DNA of 25,903 bases from a virus: positions 1 through 25,903 of IMG/VR virus record IMGVR_UViG_3300032235_000836; one strand, given 5' to 3'. Made by a program: the position numbers and the translations under genes. This document shows, piece after piece, positions 1-7,523 of this stretch. Every line of letters begins with the position of its first letter. Position 1 is the first letter of the stretch. The notes under the pieces were generated by a model. That model saw only the letters and a list, made by a program, of their open reading frames with translations. It was not told where the DNA came from and did not search any database.

Positions 1-615
1 ACGGCAATTGACATTTCTCAATACATGGATTATGAAGGACCACAAATTCCTATTCAAATATTAAAATGTGGTATCTCAGATGAGATGTATGAAATGTATC
101 CTGAATTAAAAGAGAAGAGAGTTGGTCTCGGTGTTGCCAATATTTCAATGGAATATTTGGAGAATCTTAATCGTTTTAAATTTACTGAAGATAAAACGGA
201 AATTAAGAATCGTATGGTAAAACAATTTCAAGCATCTCAAGCGGGTATATCAGAAAACAAGTTAGATGGTAGGGGTAAAATTAACTTGGCAAAATACTTT
301 GTAACGATTGAATGTTATGATTATTCTGTAAGTGAAGATGAGACTATTAATTTAAAAGATGGCGTTAAGAATATGATGGTTACTCGTTTGGGTCTACAAG
401 TTAGATTTACTGATGCAGAAACCGGTGTTGTGTTTGGAGCTTCGGGATTGGGTGAAGCTAAAACAGTTAGAGAATTAACATTATTATCTGACGCAACAGT
501 TGACCCAGTTAAATTTAATCAATCAACAATTTCTATTTCAACAAAGAAAGCACTTGATATTGCATGTGCAAGAATTTTAGATAGGATGATTAAGAAAGGA
601 ATTTTTACAAAATAA
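1..615 (+). CDS. csgG: CsgG-like curli secretion pore protein, 5' end outside window
   Basis: The frame is open from base 1, so the true start and any lipoprotein signal lie upstream; the first ATG in the window is at 25. About 204 residues are visible. The layout matches the CsgG family: a stretch with FKFTEDKTEIKNRM and then QASQAG, where CsgG has its LDR/LQE region, followed by a beta strand ending in FVTIECYDYSVSED, and then VRFTDAETGVVFGASGLGEA, which fits the family pattern of a strand, DxxTGxV and a Gly-rich turn. CsgG proteins form the outer-membrane pore that exports curli subunits in bacteria. CsgG-like genes have been reported in some T4-like marine phages, so a phage copy is not unique. 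The next two genes also encode membrane or exported proteins and follow closely, suggesting one envelope-directed operon. The family call is by pattern only; a general outer-membrane lipoprotein is the alternative. Confidence 0.72.
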   Translation, partial: TAIDISQYMDYEGPQIPIQILKCGISDEMYEMYPELKEKRVGLGVANISMEYLENLNRFKFTEDKTEIKNRMVKQFQASQAGISENKLDGRGKINLAKYFVTIECYDYSVSEDETINLKDGVKNMMVTRLGLQVRFTDAETGVVFGASGLGEAKTVRELTLLSDATVDPVKFNQSTISISTKKALDIACARILDRMIKKGIFTK

Positions 616-620
616 AAATT

Positions 621-770
621 ATGGAAAAATTATATAAAGTATTGTCGGGTGCAACATTAACATTCATTTTATGTGCGTTAATTTTTGATGGTGTTATGAT
701 TTATACTCATTTTTTTAATGAGGAATTAAATAACACTATTATCAATAACATAGATAAGGTAATATATTAA
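621..770 (+). CDS. Small single-pass membrane protein, 49 aa
   Basis: The ATG at 621 lies 5 bases after the stop of the CsgG-like gene, and the TAA at 768-770 overlaps the junction with the next gene (TAATGATTG). The protein begins MEKLYKVLSG and has one hydrophobic segment at about residues 8-31 (LSGATLTFILCALIFDGVMI), followed by an Asn-rich polar tail. It has no lipobox or recognisable domain. Its position between a CsgG-like pore gene and an exported protein gene suggests an inner-membrane partner of the same cassette, but that is inference from context. CsgE and CsgF, the usual accessory proteins of CsgG, are soluble exported proteins, so this is not an obvious version of either. Confidence 0.6.
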   Translation: MEKLYKVLSGATLTFILCALIFDGVMIYTHFFNEELNNTIINNIDKVIY

Positions 771-773
771 TGA

Positions 774-2336
774 TTGAAAAGGTTAAGAAATTTTTTAAGT
801 GTATTTTTTATATTTTGTCTAGCTTCCAAAGCTGATGCACAGACATTTACACAAACGTTTATCGATAAGTGTAGTGGGGAACTAAAAATAGCAACAACTA
901 CCTATGTAAAAGGTAACGCTTATGTTTCCTTCTATGACCAAATGAGGGTCTTTACACCGGCTGAAGTAACAAGTGGTGCTATGCAAGTTTGGTTACAATC
1001 CGTATACATCACATACTCAACAGTAGGTTGTCCAACAAATCAGGTTGTACAACAAACAGTTCAACAAACGGTTAATCAAGCAGTAGCAGCCGCAGCACAA
1101 CAAGCGGCAACACAAGCTGCTAGTGCCGCCGCGGCTCAGGCGGCAAGTGCAGCTGCATCATCTGCTGCCAGTTCGGCCGCGAGTAGTGCTGCATCATCTG
1201 CAGCGAGTAGTGCAGCATCATCAGCAGCAAGTTCGGCAGCGTCGTCCGCCGCAAGTGGTGCCGCCAGTTCATCAGCTTCATCTGCTGCAAGTAGTTCTGC
1301 AAGTTCGGCAGCATCATCAGCGGCAACTCCACCTCCAACACCATCTACACCAACACCGGCAGCTTCATCATCAAGTAGTTCATCGGCACCTGCACCATCT
1401 TCAAATTCGTCATCTTCATCTAATAATAGTAGTTCATCATCAAGTTCATCTGACAATAAGAGTAGTTCTTCATCAGAAACTAAATCGGAGACTAAAAGTG
1501 AAACTAAATCGGAAAGTAAATCAGAATCTAAGTCTGAGAGTAAATCTGAGGAAAAGAAAGAAGAATCTAAGTCTGAATCTAAAAAAGAAGAAAAGAAGGA
1601 AGAATCTAAAGAAGAAAAGAAAGAGGAGAAAAAAGAATCTAAAAAGGAAGAAAAGAAAAAAGAATCAAAACAATCTCCAATAAATCCATTATTAATTGCT
1701 TCTGATTTATCAACCGTACAAACATCAAGTGACCAATGGTCAGTAATTTTGTCGATAGGTATGAGTCGTTCTTCATTGATGGGGGATAAAAGTTATTCAT
1801 TAAATTCAATGACTTGGAGTAATCTTAAACAATTTGCATTAAGTGGTGGTATTACTAAAATGAATTTAAATGATAAGGGGTCTTTAACCTCTATTAATTC
1901 ATATTCATTAACCACAGCTTATTTATCGGGTAGTTTAATGGCTTTGGGTGGATTTACTAAAATTATACCAAATCCTAAATTGGGAACTTATGGTTATAAT
2001 TTGGGTTTGGTTACATTATTATTACAAAATACCAAAGGTGGATATGATGTTAGTTTGAGTAATTCATCTGTTGTATTTTGGACTAAACCATATCCACAAA
2101 GTAAGAAACTAACATTGTCACCGCAAATATTTGTAATTCCTCCTGGGATGAGTGTTAACACTAAAACAGGTCAAGTATCTTACGGTAACTCTATTGGTAT
2201 ATTGGCGGGTACTTCTGTAGATTATAAAATAAGTAAAAGGTTTGGTTTTAGTTTTAACTATAAAATCAACGCATCAACGGCACCCGGAGCACCTGCATTA
2301 AGTAATTTCCTCATAGGTTCGAGGATGATGCTTTAA
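774..2336 (+). CDS. Exported Ala/Ser- and Lys/Glu/Ser-repeat protein with beta-rich C-terminal domain
   Basis: The 520-residue protein must start at TTG 774, because an in-frame TGA lies immediately upstream at 771-773 and the residues after the TTG form a good signal peptide (KRLRNFLSVFFIFCLASKADA, likely cut before Gln23). Order of parts: a small N-terminal domain with Cys33 and Cys86, a QQTVQQTV heptad-like stretch, about 80 residues of SSAA repeats (103-184), a Pro/Thr linker, a poly-Ser stretch (197-233), ETKSESK then EEKKEES repeats (234-297), and a 220-residue C-terminal part rich in alternating polar and hydrophobic residues. The C-terminal part looks like an outer-membrane beta-barrel, although it ends in Leu rather than the usual Phe. 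The gene follows a CsgG-like gene and a small membrane protein gene in tandem. I do not recognise the family. It could be a surface protein displayed on the infected host, or a fibre-like protein. Confidence 0.72.
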   Translation: MKRLRNFLSVFFIFCLASKADAQTFTQTFIDKCSGELKIATTTYVKGNAYVSFYDQMRVFTPAEVTSGAMQVWLQSVYITYSTVGCPTNQVVQQTVQQTVNQAVAAAAQQAATQAASAAAAQAASAAASSAASSAASSAASSAASSAASSAASSAASSAASGAASSSASSAASSSASSAASSAATPPPTPSTPTPAASSSSSSSAPAPSSNSSSSSNNSSSSSSSSDNKSSSSSETKSETKSETKSESKSESKSESKSEEKKEESKSESKKEEKKEESKEEKKEEKKESKKEEKKKESKQSPINPLLIASDLSTVQTSSDQWSVILSIGMSRSSLMGDKSYSLNSMTWSNLKQFALSGGITKMNLNDKGSLTSINSYSLTTAYLSGSLMALGGFTKIIPNPKLGTYGYNLGLVTLLLQNTKGGYDVSLSNSSVVFWTKPYPQSKKLTLSPQIFVIPPGMSVNTKTGQVSYGNSIGILAGTSVDYKISKRFGFSFNYKINASTAPGAPALSNFLIGSRMML

Positions 2337-2709: not shown

Positions 2710-3057
2710 TTATTTTTTAGTAGTCAACTCTTCATGTAATTTTTTTACATCCTCACAAATTTCATATTCTTCTATTTCCTCAAAATAAGGTATAACATCT
2801 CTTGATAAAACAACGGTATCCGATTTATTAAATTTAAATTCAGTATCCCATTCTAAACCATGAATTATTGCTTGAATGTACAATGTTAATACTCTTTTTT
2901 TACTCTCACCTGTAAACCCTTTAAAAACCTCAATAATATTTTCATATATTGGTCTTTTATTGATAGTGTAAAAATCGGTAAAATCTTCATATTTACCTTT
3001 TATGTACATTTTTCTATATGGGGTTTTGGTGGTTCCTTTATATGCCATTATTTCCAT
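2710..3057 (-). CDS. Hypothetical protein, 115 aa
   Basis: This is an intact frame on the - strand, starting 2 bases after the stop of the cREC gene, so it is the last gene of a tightly packed three-gene operon. Two starts are possible: MEIMAYKG at 3057 or MAYKG at 3048. The second would leave a basic N-terminus (AYKGTTKTPYRKMYIKGKYED). The protein is mixed charged, with an acidic segment near the end (PYFEEIEEYEICED), and has no signal peptide or membrane segment. I do not recognise a domain. Its neighbours suggest a non-structural accessory protein, but nothing in the sequence shows its role. Confidence 0.7.
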   Translation of the reverse strand: MEIMAYKGTTKTPYRKMYIKGKYEDFTDFYTINKRPIYENIIEVFKGFTGESKKRVLTLYIQAIIHGLEWDTEFKFNKSDTVVLSRDVIPYFEEIEEYEICEDVKKLHEELTTKK

Positions 3058-3059
3058 TA

Positions 3060-3479
3060 TTATAAATTTATGGTTGTATGTTCTATACGTACTCTTACGC
3101 AGTTTTGAGGTAATCTATTGATGTGTCTATAATTGTTGATGTAACCCATGATATTGGCACTACCGATAGCGTTTGCAGAATGTGTGAACACATCAACTAC
3201 CGGTTGACCGTCCATCCATTGTTCAACTAACCATTTTGCACAATCCATACCGGTTTTTTCGGTAATGTTATTATAATCTAATTTATAGTTATGATAAACA
3301 TTAGTGTGCCATTCTTTCATGGCGGTATCTCCTAAATCGTGGTCTAACGAAATGATATTAATATTCTCCAATCCGTTGTACATTACGGTACTAACAAATT
3401 GTTCATAATTTCTAACAACGGTCCACCCATCTTCAATAGGTGTTCTAATGTCATCTAAATAAATTCTAATCTTTGACAT
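3060..3479 (-). CDS. Cyclic-phosphate-processing receiver-like (cREC) domain protein
   Basis: This 139-residue protein has a receiver-like fold signature: IYLDDIRTP with Asp9-Asp10 at the end of the first strand, WTVVRNYEQF, IISLDHDLGD with Asp46-His47-Asp48, TGMDCAKWLVEQ, and a late VFTHSANAIGSANI with His100 and Asn103. This pattern (LDDxRxP, SLDHDLG, HSANPxG) is that of the cREC family, which is common in phages. The family has been proposed from comparative genomics to act on cyclic phosphate ends such as those of RNA; the activity is a prediction for the family, not something visible here. It differs from signalling receivers because the DHD and HSxN motifs replace the usual phospho-acceptor arrangement. 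The ATG at 3479 is preceded by AATTTATA with no Shine-Dalgarno. It lies between the SGNH hydrolase gene and an unknown gene with gaps of 1-2 bases. Confidence 0.78.
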   Translation of the reverse strand: MSKIRIYLDDIRTPIEDGWTVVRNYEQFVSTVMYNGLENINIISLDHDLGDTAMKEWHTNVYHNYKLDYNNITEKTGMDCAKWLVEQWMDGQPVVDVFTHSANAIGSANIMGYINNYRHINRLPQNCVRVRIEHTTINL

Positions 3480-3480
3480 A

Positions 3481-4062
3481 TTATAAATTTTTTAACACCC
3501 AACTTGAGAACTTTTTATGTCCTGAGGATTTAAGATGAATACCGTCACCTGAATCTTGATATGTTACCGTGGTATCCATGGGTATGATTTTACATCCCAA
3601 TAATCTTTCTTGCATTTTATTTTGTAATTTAACATACCTATCACGACACACTTTAGTTACATTGTCTGTGTATACGGTTTTTTTAATAACTTTATTTGGG
3701 TCATATCCAACAATCACAATAACTTCCATTTCATATAGGTTACCTAAGTTAACCATTGATTGTAAATTATTAATTGTTGTTGATTCTTTGGTACTAGCGA
3801 AAGAATCATTAATACCTCCGTATATGATTAATGTATTATGGTGAGGACCATTTTCCAAATAATTTTGTAAAGTTTTTAACATCCAATCGGTTCTTTTACC
3901 ACCTTTTGATATGTTAACATAACCCATACCCATACCTTTTGCTACGGTATGTTGCCAACCATTTGAATAACAGGTTAGACTATCTCCTATAAACAAGATT
4001 TTAACATCCTTCCTTGAAGGAATGAATAAAAATAAAAAAAGTGATATTAATAGTGTTTTCAT
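3481..4062 (-). CDS. Exported SGNH/GDSL-family hydrolase
   Basis: This 193-residue protein begins with a short hydrophobic signal-like segment (MKTLLISLFLFLFIPS) and then carries the SGNH blocks in order: FIGDSL with nucleophile Ser28 (block I), the Gly54-Gly55 turn (block II), YGGINDS with Asn85 and Asp86 (block III), and GDGIHLKSSGH with Asp173 and His176 (block V, DxxH). The complete catalytic set predicts an active ester hydrolase. Family members act on acyl esters, including acetyl groups of cell-wall or capsule sugars; the substrate here is unknown. The signal segment suggests action in the periplasm or at the surface. The gene follows a lipoprotein gene on the same strand, with a terminator hairpin between them, and is followed after 1 base by the cREC gene. 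Confidence 0.82.
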   Translation of the reverse strand: MKTLLISLFLFLFIPSRKDVKILFIGDSLTCYSNGWQHTVAKGMGMGYVNISKGGKRTDWMLKTLQNYLENGPHHNTLIIYGGINDSFASTKESTTINNLQSMVNLGNLYEMEVIVIVGYDPNKVIKKTVYTDNVTKVCRDRYVKLQNKMQERLLGCKIIPMDTTVTYQDSGDGIHLKSSGHKKFSSWVLKNL

Positions 4063-4447: not shown

Positions 4448-6469
4448 TTATTTATCACTATTTTTAGAAATTTTTAATTCATTTTCTTCAAAAATTATTG
4501 AAATTTCTTCGTTTTCTACTATGTTACCCATTAAAATTTGTTCACTCAAGAAATCTTCACAAAGATTTTGAATGATACGTTCCAAAGGACGAGCACCGTA
4601 TTCTTCTTGTGTGTTAAGGCTAAAGATTTGGTCAATAACACTTTGTTCGAATGTGATTTTATAACTCTTTTCAATTAATCTCGAGTTCAATTTACCTAAT
4701 TCTACATTAACAATACGTTTTAATGTTTCATCATTCAATGAATTGAATAAAACTATGTCATCAATACGATTTAAGAACTCTGGATTGAATTGTTGTTTCA
4801 ATGATTTTTGAATCATGGACTTTTTAACCTCATATTTTTGGGTTTCTGATGATGAGGTGGTAAAACCAACACCTCCACCAAACTCTGAGACCTTTTTAGC
4901 TCCAACATTTGAAGTCATAATGATTAAACAGTTGGTAAAATTAACTTTTCGACCAAAAGAATCGGTTAAATGACCTTCATCTAAGATTTGAAGTAAGATA
5001 TTGAACACATCTTTATGTGCTTTCTCAATTTCATCAAATAAAATCACAGAAAATGGGTTATTTTTCACTTTTTCAGTCAATTGACCTCCTTCATCATGTC
5101 CAATATATCCCGGAGGAGAACCAATTAAACGAGATACGTTGTGACGTTCCATATATTCACTCATATCGACACGAATAATCTTCTCTGGGTCACCGAAAAG
5201 GTTCTCAGCTAAGGATTTAGCTAGGAAGGTCTTTCCAACCCCCGTAGAACCCAAGAAAATGAATGAACCGATAGGTTTATTTGCATCTTTAATACCAACA
5301 CGATTACGTCTAATGGCTTTAGAGATTGAACTGATAGCCTCATCTTGACCAATAACCTTAGCAGATAAGGTTTTCTCCATATTTAATAGATTTACCGTCT
5401 CTTTTGTGTCCAATTTAGTGATTGGGACACCGGTCATTTCAGAAACAACAGAATAAACATCATCGATACTAACAGGAATTTTATTATCCTTTTGACTATC
5501 CATCCATTTTTTCTTTTCTTCATCTAACTTGAGATTAACTTTACGTTCTTCATCACGAAGTTTTGCAGCTTGTTCGTAATTTTGTTTTTTAACTACGTCA
5601 AGTTTTTTCTCTTTAATATCCTCAGCTTCTTTCTTTAATTTTTCAATAACTTCAGGAATTTGACTTGTAACTCGTTTTTCCGCACCTAATTCATCAAGAA
5701 CGTCAATAGCTTTATCAGGAAATTGTCTATCGGTGATATATCGGCCGGCCAATTTAACAACAGTTTCAATAACATTATCTTCATAATTTACTTTATGAAA
5801 ATCTTGATAAGAATTTTGTAGGTTTTTAAGAATCGCAACCGTTTCTACTTGAGTTGGTTCTTTTAATATTACTTTTTGGAACCTACGAGATAATGCACCA
5901 TCTTTTTCGATGTGTTTTTTGTATTCATCAAATGTTGTTGCCCCAATACATTGCATTTCACCACGAGCAAGTGCTGGTTTCATGATATTCGCCGCATCCA
6001 TTGCTCCACTTGCGTTACCGGCACCAACCATAGTATGTAATTCGTCAATAAAGACAATAACGTTAGGTGCATCTTGTAATTCGGCAAGAATTGCTTTGAT
6101 TCTTTCCTCAAATTGTCCACGATATTTTGTACCGGCAACCAATGAAGTTAAATCCAATGACATAATACGTTTATCTAACAATACTGTAGGACATTCACCC
6201 TTTTGAATCATTAATGCCAATTTTTCAACAATTGCGGTTTTACCCACACCGGCGTCACCAACAATTACCGCATTGTTTTTCTTTTTACGTGATAGAATTT
6301 GTGCAATTCGTTTCACTTCTTTGTCCCTACCAATAATAGGGTCAATCTTACCTTCCTCAGCAAGTTTAATTAAATCTCGTGAGAAATTATCTAAAATTGG
6401 TGTGTTTGAACCCTTTTTGGTTCTCTTTGGATTGATGGTTGGACCATCTTCGAAGAATTCTACAGACAT
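4448..6469 (-). CDS. ClpC-like AAA+ unfoldase lacking the N-terminal domain
   Basis: This 673-residue protein has two AAA+ modules. D1 has Walker A GDAGVGKT (71-78), Walker B VIVFIDE (137-143) and an arginine pair in SRRF (195-197). D2 has Walker A GSTGVGKT (407-414), Walker B VILFDE (475-480) and sensor-2 GARPLER (625-631). The linker between them carries a UVR-like stretch (QNYEQAAKLRDEE, about 296-308), as in ClpC, instead of the long ClpB coiled coil. The usual 140-residue Clp N-terminal domain is absent: D1 begins by residue 30. After the D2 core, a VGF tripeptide (534-536) sits where ClpC has its ClpP-docking loop. This suggests an unfoldase feeding a ClpP peptidase, probably the host's, rather than a ClpB disaggregase. 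It is divergent from hsp20 across a repeat-rich regulatory region with a host-type promoter. Confidence 0.9.
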   Translation of the reverse strand: MSVEFFEDGPTINPKRTKKGSNTPILDNFSRDLIKLAEEGKIDPIIGRDKEVKRIAQILSRKKKNNAVIVGDAGVGKTAIVEKLALMIQKGECPTVLLDKRIMSLDLTSLVAGTKYRGQFEERIKAILAELQDAPNVIVFIDELHTMVGAGNASGAMDAANIMKPALARGEMQCIGATTFDEYKKHIEKDGALSRRFQKVILKEPTQVETVAILKNLQNSYQDFHKVNYEDNVIETVVKLAGRYITDRQFPDKAIDVLDELGAEKRVTSQIPEVIEKLKKEAEDIKEKKLDVVKKQNYEQAAKLRDEERKVNLKLDEEKKKWMDSQKDNKIPVSIDDVYSVVSEMTGVPITKLDTKETVNLLNMEKTLSAKVIGQDEAISSISKAIRRNRVGIKDANKPIGSFIFLGSTGVGKTFLAKSLAENLFGDPEKIIRVDMSEYMERHNVSRLIGSPPGYIGHDEGGQLTEKVKNNPFSVILFDEIEKAHKDVFNILLQILDEGHLTDSFGRKVNFTNCLIIMTSNVGAKKVSEFGGGVGFTTSSSETQKYEVKKSMIQKSLKQQFNPEFLNRIDDIVLFNSLNDETLKRIVNVELGKLNSRLIEKSYKITFEQSVIDQIFSLNTQEEYGARPLERIIQNLCEDFLSEQILMGNIVENEEISIIFEENELKISKNSDK

Positions 6470-6640: not shown

Positions 6641-7006
6641 ATGATGACATTATTTAAAGACCCGTTGTTTCAATCATTGGATAGTGTATTTGAAACACCA
6701 AAACAAATTAATCAACCTAAAATAACAAGAACGGATGAGAATTATCAGGTACACATTGCGGTACCCGGTTTAACCAAAGATGATTTAACTATCTCAACCA
6801 AAGAGGGGTATTTATACATTTCTTATCTTAAAGAAGAAACCGACGATAAAACATATTCGTTTACAAGTTCATTTAAGAAAACATACCACATACCTGATGA
6901 TGTAGATGAAAAACAAATTATTGGTAGTGTTGAGAATGGTGTGTTGGGAATTATTCTCCCAAAAAGTAAAAAGAAGTCGTCAGAACGATTTATTTCACTT
7001 ACTTAA
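6641..7006 (+). CDS. hsp20: Small heat-shock protein (Hsp20, alpha-crystallin domain)
   Basis: This 121-residue protein has the alpha-crystallin core: YQVHIAVPGLTKDDL (35-49) with the conserved VPGL, LYISYLKEE, and the end motif ENGVLGIILPK (98-108, matching GxLxxxLPK). A C-terminal ISL (118-120) fits the IxI/V docking motif used for oligomer assembly. Hsp20 proteins hold unfolding proteins in a refoldable state without ATP and hand them to ATP-driven chaperones. They are a recurrent gene in T4-like phages. The start could be either of two adjacent ATGs (6641 or 6644). A perfect terminator hairpin follows directly. The divergent Clp unfoldase gene suggests a joint response to protein stress late in infection, or help with virion protein quality control. 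Confidence 0.9.
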   Translation: MMTLFKDPLFQSLDSVFETPKQINQPKITRTDENYQVHIAVPGLTKDDLTISTKEGYLYISYLKEETDDKTYSFTSSFKKTYHIPDDVDEKQIIGSVENGVLGIILPKSKKKSSERFISLT

Positions 7007-7010
7007 TGAT

Positions 7011-7034
7011 AACCCCGAGAAATCGGGGTTTTTT
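7011..7034 (+). terminator. Perfect 8-bp terminator hairpin after hsp20
   Basis: AACCCCGA (7011-7018) and TCGGGGTT (7023-7030) form a perfect stem with a GAAA tetraloop, followed by a T-run. It begins 4 bases after the hsp20 stop. Confidence 0.9.
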
Positions 7035-7038
7035 ATTT

Positions 7039-7047
7039 GTATTTATA
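7039..7047 (+). promoter_or_regulatory. GTATTTATA late-type promoter box
   Basis: The exact 9-mer lies between the hsp20 terminator and the 56-codon gene, 13 bases before its ATG. It is identical to the boxes before the terminase, portal, protease and scaffold genes. Confidence 0.6.
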
Positions 7048-7060
7048 TTAAATTCATATC

Positions 7061-7231
7061 ATGAACAAAGAATCAATGAAAAGAAAACATATGGAAGAAT
7101 CCAATGTAATTCTACAAAACAGATTAAACAATAAAACATCAGAACCTTTGTTTTCGGGTAATGTAGAAAAAAGTAATCAAAGAAAGGATATATTAAAAGA
7201 TAAATTAATAAATCAATTAAAAGGTAAATAA
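7061..7231 (+). CDS. Small basic hypothetical protein, 56 aa
   Basis: The ATG at 7061 opens a 56-codon frame that begins MNKESMKRKHMEESN and ends NQLKGK. It is very hydrophilic, rich in Lys, Asn and Glu, and probably helical, with no membrane segment or Cys. It lies 13 bases after a GTATTTATA box and just behind a terminator, which supports its being a real, separately transcribed gene. No family is recognised. Confidence 0.6.
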   Translation: MNKESMKRKHMEESNVILQNRLNNKTSEPLFSGNVEKSNQRKDILKDKLINQLKGK

Positions 7232-7245
7232 TATAAATTTTTTGT

Positions 7246-7253
7246 TATATTTG
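7246..7253 (+). promoter_or_regulatory. TATATTTG host-type -7 box
   Basis: TATATTTG matches TAnnTTTG and lies 24 bases before the ATG of the KTSC gene. No convincing TTTG is seen about 19 bases further upstream, so only the -7 element supports it. Confidence 0.5.
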
Positions 7254-7277
7254 CACTGTACTAAAAAAAAATAATAT

Positions 7278-7523
7278 ATGTCAATTTTATCTGAAAAAAT
7301 TAATGGTAAGTTGATTGATATTGAAATCAATTCAACAAATTTGACTTCGGCTTCTTACAATACAGAAAATGAAGATTTATTGGTAACTTTTAAAAACGGT
7401 GCTATTTATGAATATAATAAAGTTCCTTGGAATAAGTTTACCAAACTAAGGTTAGCTGAATCTCAAGGGAAATACTTTAACGAACATATCGCTAAAGAAC
7501 ATACCTACAAAAAAGTTAAATGA
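7278..7523 (+). CDS. KTSC-domain protein
   Basis: This 81-residue protein matches the small KTSC domain along most of its length: a polar strand ending in SASYNTENEDLLVTF, then NGAIYEYNKVP (41-51), then ESQGKYFNEHI (61-71) and a short basic tail. KTSC domains are named after the family member at the end of lysyl-tRNA synthetase and are common as stand-alone phage proteins; their role is not established, though RNA or nucleotide binding has been suggested. The TGA overlaps the next start (ATGA, 7520-7523), so the two genes are probably translationally coupled. Confidence 0.8.
   Translation: MSILSEKINGKLIDIEINSTNLTSASYNTENEDLLVTFKNGAIYEYNKVPWNKFTKLRLAESQGKYFNEHIAKEHTYKKVK

Follow-up and report, generated by a model that had tools for sequence, protein, structure and literature searches.

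A predicted CsgG-fold protein linked to a predicted outer-membrane barrel in a proposed envelope module of T4-like phages

The stretch of DNA analyzed here in its whole length of 25.9 kb, referred to as the window, is a virus record from a T4-like phage and encodes the portal protein gp20, the terminase and gp23. Its very beginning contains three tandem open reading frames separated by 5 and 3 bases (Table 1), as described in a previous reading of the same DNA that made no use of databases (the sequence-only reading). The first frame does exist but is only a fragment, the 5' end of which is open at the window edge. In a 99.5% identical relative (locus L002), the full-length protein comprises 240 amino acids with a signal peptide, which places 36 residues, among them the signal peptide, beyond the window edge. 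Scanning the window for Rfam families and tRNAs gave no matches. Further downstream, a protein with a cREC cyclic-phosphate-processing receiver domain is encoded on the minus strand at 3060-3479 (Pfam E 6.6e-22), and its gene adjoins genes for a GDSL hydrolase (3481-4062) and a ClpB/ClpC-like ATPase (4448-6469).

Table 1. Features at the beginning of the window and positions of the upstream motif.
Feature	Position in window	Strand	Evidence
Predicted CsgG-fold protein truncated at the window edge (5' end); last 204 of ~240 residues	1..615	+	ORF; full-length relative L002:5893-6615; AlphaFold and Foldseek on L002
Putative single-pass membrane protein, 49 aa, accessory, not conserved	621..770	+	Relatives in 3/74 loci; no significant family
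Exported, predicted outer-membrane barrel protein, 520 aa, TTG start	774..2336	+	ORF, AlphaFold, Foldseek; downstream of CsgG-fold gene in 135/137 distinct loci
Signal peptide, residues 1-22; Gln23 invariant after presumed cleavage site	774..839	+	Sequence, invariant columns; model helix 2-17
Small N-terminal domain, residues 25-86; invariant Asp31, Cys33, Gly68, Trp73, Cys86	846..1031	+	Alignment columns, model
Low-confidence Ala-rich helix (90-148), followed by a disordered linker (149-305) rich first in Ser and then in Lys/Glu/Ser; variable composition	1041..1688	+	
Predicted 12-stranded beta-barrel, residues 306-518	1689..2327	+	Model strands mostly pLDDT 80-93; Foldseek NanC, PcoB, BrkA, FapF
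TATTTATA, often after a G, within ~35 bases before gene starts	8308, 12653, 14492, 17788, 18548; 24941	+; -	

The sequence-only reading took the first protein for a CsgG-like export pore. Profile searches of the window protein yielded no usable CsgG match in Pfam, PHROGs and NCBIfam; the Pfam CsgG family (PF03783) did not recognize it and was matched by a single one of 47 relatives, at E 0.01. When the phage family was aligned by hhalign with CsgG from E. coli, from two phages and from twelve genomes of the flavobacterial family, a score of 29.3 was obtained (P 0.002, probability 13%), with all of 60 column shuffles scoring lower (maximum 21.6). This alignment brings the conserved TG turn and the last helix into register. 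An AlphaFold model of the L002 protein was built on 47 relatives (mean pLDDT 76), and its top 16 Foldseek matches in the PDB are CsgG only (best E 4.6e-07, probability 1.00, 218-241 columns), at TM-scores of only 0.41-0.50. FlgT, PelC and LptE are among the matches that come thereafter. Sequence-profile support is weak; a CsgG-like fold is supported for the predicted protein because the AlphaFold model matches solved CsgG structures best.

Of the earlier proposal, the resemblance to CsgG thus stands at the level of the predicted fold. The membrane hairpins of the phage family measure 28-29 and 32-34 residues versus 31 and 40 in CsgG, and they contain an invariant Glu-Asp pair, so that a function as a pore is doubtful. 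Hydrophobicity of the lipid-facing side spoke neither clearly for nor clearly against a nonameric pore with two transmembrane hairpins in each subunit. PelC and LptE, which have related folds, are not pores by themselves. Lipobox-like LFSC, LSSC or LIGC motifs occur in one subclade, and others, including the lineage of the window, carry an ordinary signal peptide ending in AQ or SQ.

The 520-residue protein is predicted by AlphaFold to start with a signal peptide and a small domain that contains two invariant cysteines, from which a disordered linker leads to a barrel of 12 strands. The repeats noted previously (Ala/Ser, Ser and Lys/Glu/Ser) are real and reside mostly in this predicted linker. 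Three roles had been considered for this protein, that of cargo, of an outer-membrane barrel or of a partner of the pore. All Foldseek matches of the barrel are outer-membrane barrels, with NanC as the best PDB match and PcoB, BrkA, FapF (E 1.1e-03) and EspP among the others, and barrel closure is deduced from the matches to porins and autotransporter barrels. This renders it most likely that the protein is located in the outer membrane and is not pore cargo, and the cargo reading was rejected because the modeled barrel is confident. The overall architecture, an N-terminal part followed by a 12-stranded barrel, would also be compatible with a type Va autotransporter, in which the barrel carries an N-terminal passenger to the surface. 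A match to PHROG 342 ("internal virion protein", E 3e-06, residues 110-273) was dismissed as a low-complexity match in the linker, and one to NadA in the PDB (E 0.058) as poor and partial. With regard to a C-terminal beta-signal with a final aromatic residue, the barrel often ends in F in clade B (...GGKLTF) and mostly in L in clade A (...GSRMML). The TTG start codon is shared with many close clade A relatives, and there is no in-frame ATG upstream.

In 135 of the 137 distinct loci with enough sequence, the CsgG-fold gene is followed by an open reading frame with both domains of the barrel protein, in 96 of them within 100 bases, and this tight linkage supports the 520-residue protein as a partner of the CsgG-fold protein. 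L020 is the only eligible locus that has the CsgG-fold gene but no recognizable barrel gene downstream. Conservation does not extend to the third gene of the proposed cassette: relatives of the 49-residue protein are encoded in 3 of 74 close loci, no significant family match was obtained for it, and its presence is incidental. The more conserved small partner is a protein of about 105 amino acids with one predicted transmembrane segment, which is encoded upstream in all loci of two sets (45/45 and 59/59, together 104/104). Conversely, loci seeded from the gene for this protein alone contain the CsgG-fold gene in 77 of 79 cases, and the two exceptions are cut off by the end of a contig.

Six out of eight contigs longer than 100 kb in which a close gp23 is encoded also contain the CsgG-fold gene, and gp23 is present in 16 of 18 large contigs that carry the CsgG-fold gene; a single CsgG-fold query gave 507 matches in IMG/VR. 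Among 201 genomes of the host family, the phage family occurs in one, whereas ordinary CsgG, recognized by Pfam, occurs in 51, and for this reason a recent capture from the host is unlikely. The chromosomal CsgG proteins of the flavobacterial host family (L427-L438) are about 460-560 residues long, with an extra C-terminal region of some 180-290 residues after the CsgG part. In clade B, the barrel gene is followed by one for a small exported protein with similarity to the CsgG-fold protein in its C-terminal part (hhalign E 2.5e-04). This protein (L082 14092-14547 and clade B homologues) looks like a reduced paralogue, with the last helix motif common to both. Locus L052 encodes two more exported proteins that are barrel-like in appearance, one of 296 residues (2881-3771) with similarity to the barrel domain and one of 271 residues (6702-7517), the gene for which separates those for ring and barrel in several loci.

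The neighborhood of the gene pair includes genes for secreted and surface proteins. Of 16 neighbor proteins, seven bear the type IX sorting tail TIGR04183 (best E 3.9e-12), seven a cohesin domain (best 1.4e-12) and four a C-type lectin domain (Lectin_C, best 2.6e-17). In the cultured Flavobacterium phage immuto, gp013 contains a C-type lectin domain (3e-15) and gp015 a cohesin domain (5.9e-09) along with a type IX sorting tail (2.4e-08). Type IX tails, cohesins, C-type lectins and weak dockerin-like EF-hand repeats are united in one block at L082 8665-11560 (immuto gp013-gp015) and are also seen in upstream proteins of L112, L124, L137 and L151. In clade A, which includes the window, surface-domain matches are weaker and type IX tails only marginal. 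Lectin and cohesin genes differ from locus to locus, and their link to the ring-barrel pair may therefore be loose. CsgF, CsgE or curlin repeats were not recognized among the neighbor proteins read or scanned.

A further hint comes from the DNA upstream of the genes. The motif TATTTATA occurs within 60 bases upstream of six of the 23 window genes including those for terminase and portal, where 0.32 occurrences are expected, a comparison in which the AT-richness of intergenic DNA is not separated out. It is also located upstream of the CsgG-fold or lectin gene in many loci and is probably the late promoter of these Bacteroidota T4-like phages. Plain TATAAATA, counted as a pattern on both strands, was discarded in this role as it is only mildly enriched (10 found versus 5.4 expected); TATTTATA is of use where it precedes genes on their coding strand.

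Computation supports the predicted folds, the gene linkage, the domain content and the motif; what we infer in the following are the ring-barrel contact and the location, timing and purpose of the module. The occurrence of the ring-barrel pair in a block with lectins and other surface proteins suggests that the infected cell has its surface re-equipped by the virus, and a late remodeling of the host surface by an envelope module is the reading we consider most likely, tentatively and with a probability of roughly 0.4. The beginning of the window would then be where a late-expressed envelope module of Flavobacteria-infecting T4-like phages has its distal end. The CsgG-fold protein may form a periplasmic or outer-membrane ring that serves as a collar or assembly partner of the barrel, in the way PelC serves PelB and LptE serves LptD. 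The barrel would tether its own N-terminal domain through the long flexible linker and the protein of about 105 residues could connect the complex to the inner membrane, while lectin and cohesin proteins might be displayed via the type IX secretion system of the host. Such a module could alter the infected-cell surface in a way that competing phages are excluded or adhesion is changed. A more elaborate version, which appears unlikely, envisages a late phage-built surface display, in which CsgG-fold ring and barrel cross the envelope, lectins dock by cohesin-dockerin contacts onto scaffolds exported by host type IX secretion, and the re-coated cells repel rival phages or hold new hosts. Dockerin matches among the neighbor proteins are weak (best E 0.0044), which makes the docking step a guess.

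Alternatively, the module may aid phage exit, the inner-membrane protein of about 105 residues and the CsgG-fold/barrel pair breaching or linking both membranes late in infection in a spanin-like manner. The strict linkage of inner-membrane-type and outer-membrane-type proteins and the late-type motif upstream would fit such a function, and a role in lysis has been proposed for the CsgG protein of phage Melnitz (PMC9004378). However, immuto encodes an endolysin and a holin as a separate pair at a distance of about 30 kb, the neighboring lectins, cohesins and type IX cargo would be out of place in a lysis cassette, and none of the CsgG-fold, barrel and ~105-residue proteins has a spanin match in PHROGs. 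We regard an exit aid as rather unlikely. Similarly doubtful, and judged improbable here, is that the CsgG-fold protein is an outer-membrane export pore with the lectin, cohesin or barrel proteins as its cargo, as in curli. The best fold matches are to CsgG over the whole length, in pre-pore and pore forms, and pelagiphage CsgG adjoins curlin repeats. Such repeats and CsgF are not seen among the neighbors here, the hairpins are shorter than in CsgG and contain the invariant acidic pair, and for several of the surface proteins, which have type IX tails, CsgG would be dispensable. Moreover, the downstream protein is a predicted beta-barrel, and proteins of this class are normally inserted by BAM. 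Finally, the barrel could be a porin-like channel through which sugars or small solutes are taken up or released, the ring acting as its gate and the lectins capturing glycans. This would agree with the sialic-acid porin NanC as best match and with the C-type lectin neighbors but is very unlikely, given that simple porins do not usually have a long linker and a separate N-domain and that a nutrient benefit late in infection is doubtful.

That Bacteroidota T4-like phages have a separate CsgG-fold family, tied to a barrel and not to CsgF and curlins, suggests that large T4-like phages recurrently need an envelope ring and that the ring is not a remnant of curli. Type IX sorting tails joined to cohesin domains and situated beside lectins are an addition to the known phage-encoded repertoire, and the module is testable in phage immuto, which is cultured on Flavobacterium sp. 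LMO8.

Several established systems invite comparison. FapF, the secretion barrel for functional amyloids in Pseudomonas, likewise combines a 12-stranded barrel with an N-terminal region and a linker; identity is about 7%, however, and Fap amyloid genes are not seen. PelC-PelB and LptE-LptD each combine a ring or plug protein with a dedicated barrel; the phage model has fold matches to PelC and LptE, and the phage gene is adjoined by one for a dedicated barrel. Barrels of those systems have 16 or 26 strands, in contrast to the predicted 12 strands here, and no homology between the barrels was found. With E. coli CsgG (PDB 4uv2, 4uv3, 6l7a), the predicted fold agrees over the whole length at a probability of 1.00, whereas identity is about 10%, the hairpins are shorter, a lipobox-like Cys exists in some members only and CsgF and CsgA are not seen. 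The same block in a cultured relative is formed by gp013-gp019 of immuto, in which gp017 is the CsgG-fold protein (56% identity) and gp018 the barrel; the barrel domain is about 14% identical to that of the window, the 49-residue gene is absent, and gp015 has a clear cohesin and type IX tail.

In the literature covered, with subscription papers largely outside it, such phage modules are represented by reports on pelagiphages and a methylophage and by one cryoconite phage with type IX tails only. The sequence-only reading had called a linked candidate cargo less described, yet Pelagibacter phage HTVC008M and Methylophilales phage Melnitz already carry CsgF-CsgG-curlin-repeat blocks; the function of phage-borne CsgG in pelagimyophages and the methylophage was called unclear (PMC7029224, PMC9004378). 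These phages, too, are T4-like and have the CsgG-fold gene in a block for exported proteins with small membrane proteins upstream, in a genome region that starts with the gene for the ssDNA-binding protein. Their CsgG is 37-40% identical to that of E. coli and accompanied by CsgF and curlin repeats, whereas the present one is not recognized by Pfam and has a predicted barrel as partner, together with lectins, cohesins and type IX cargo. The module is a Bacteroidota-phage variant of the known phage CsgG blocks, in which a barrel and lectins replace CsgF and curlins.
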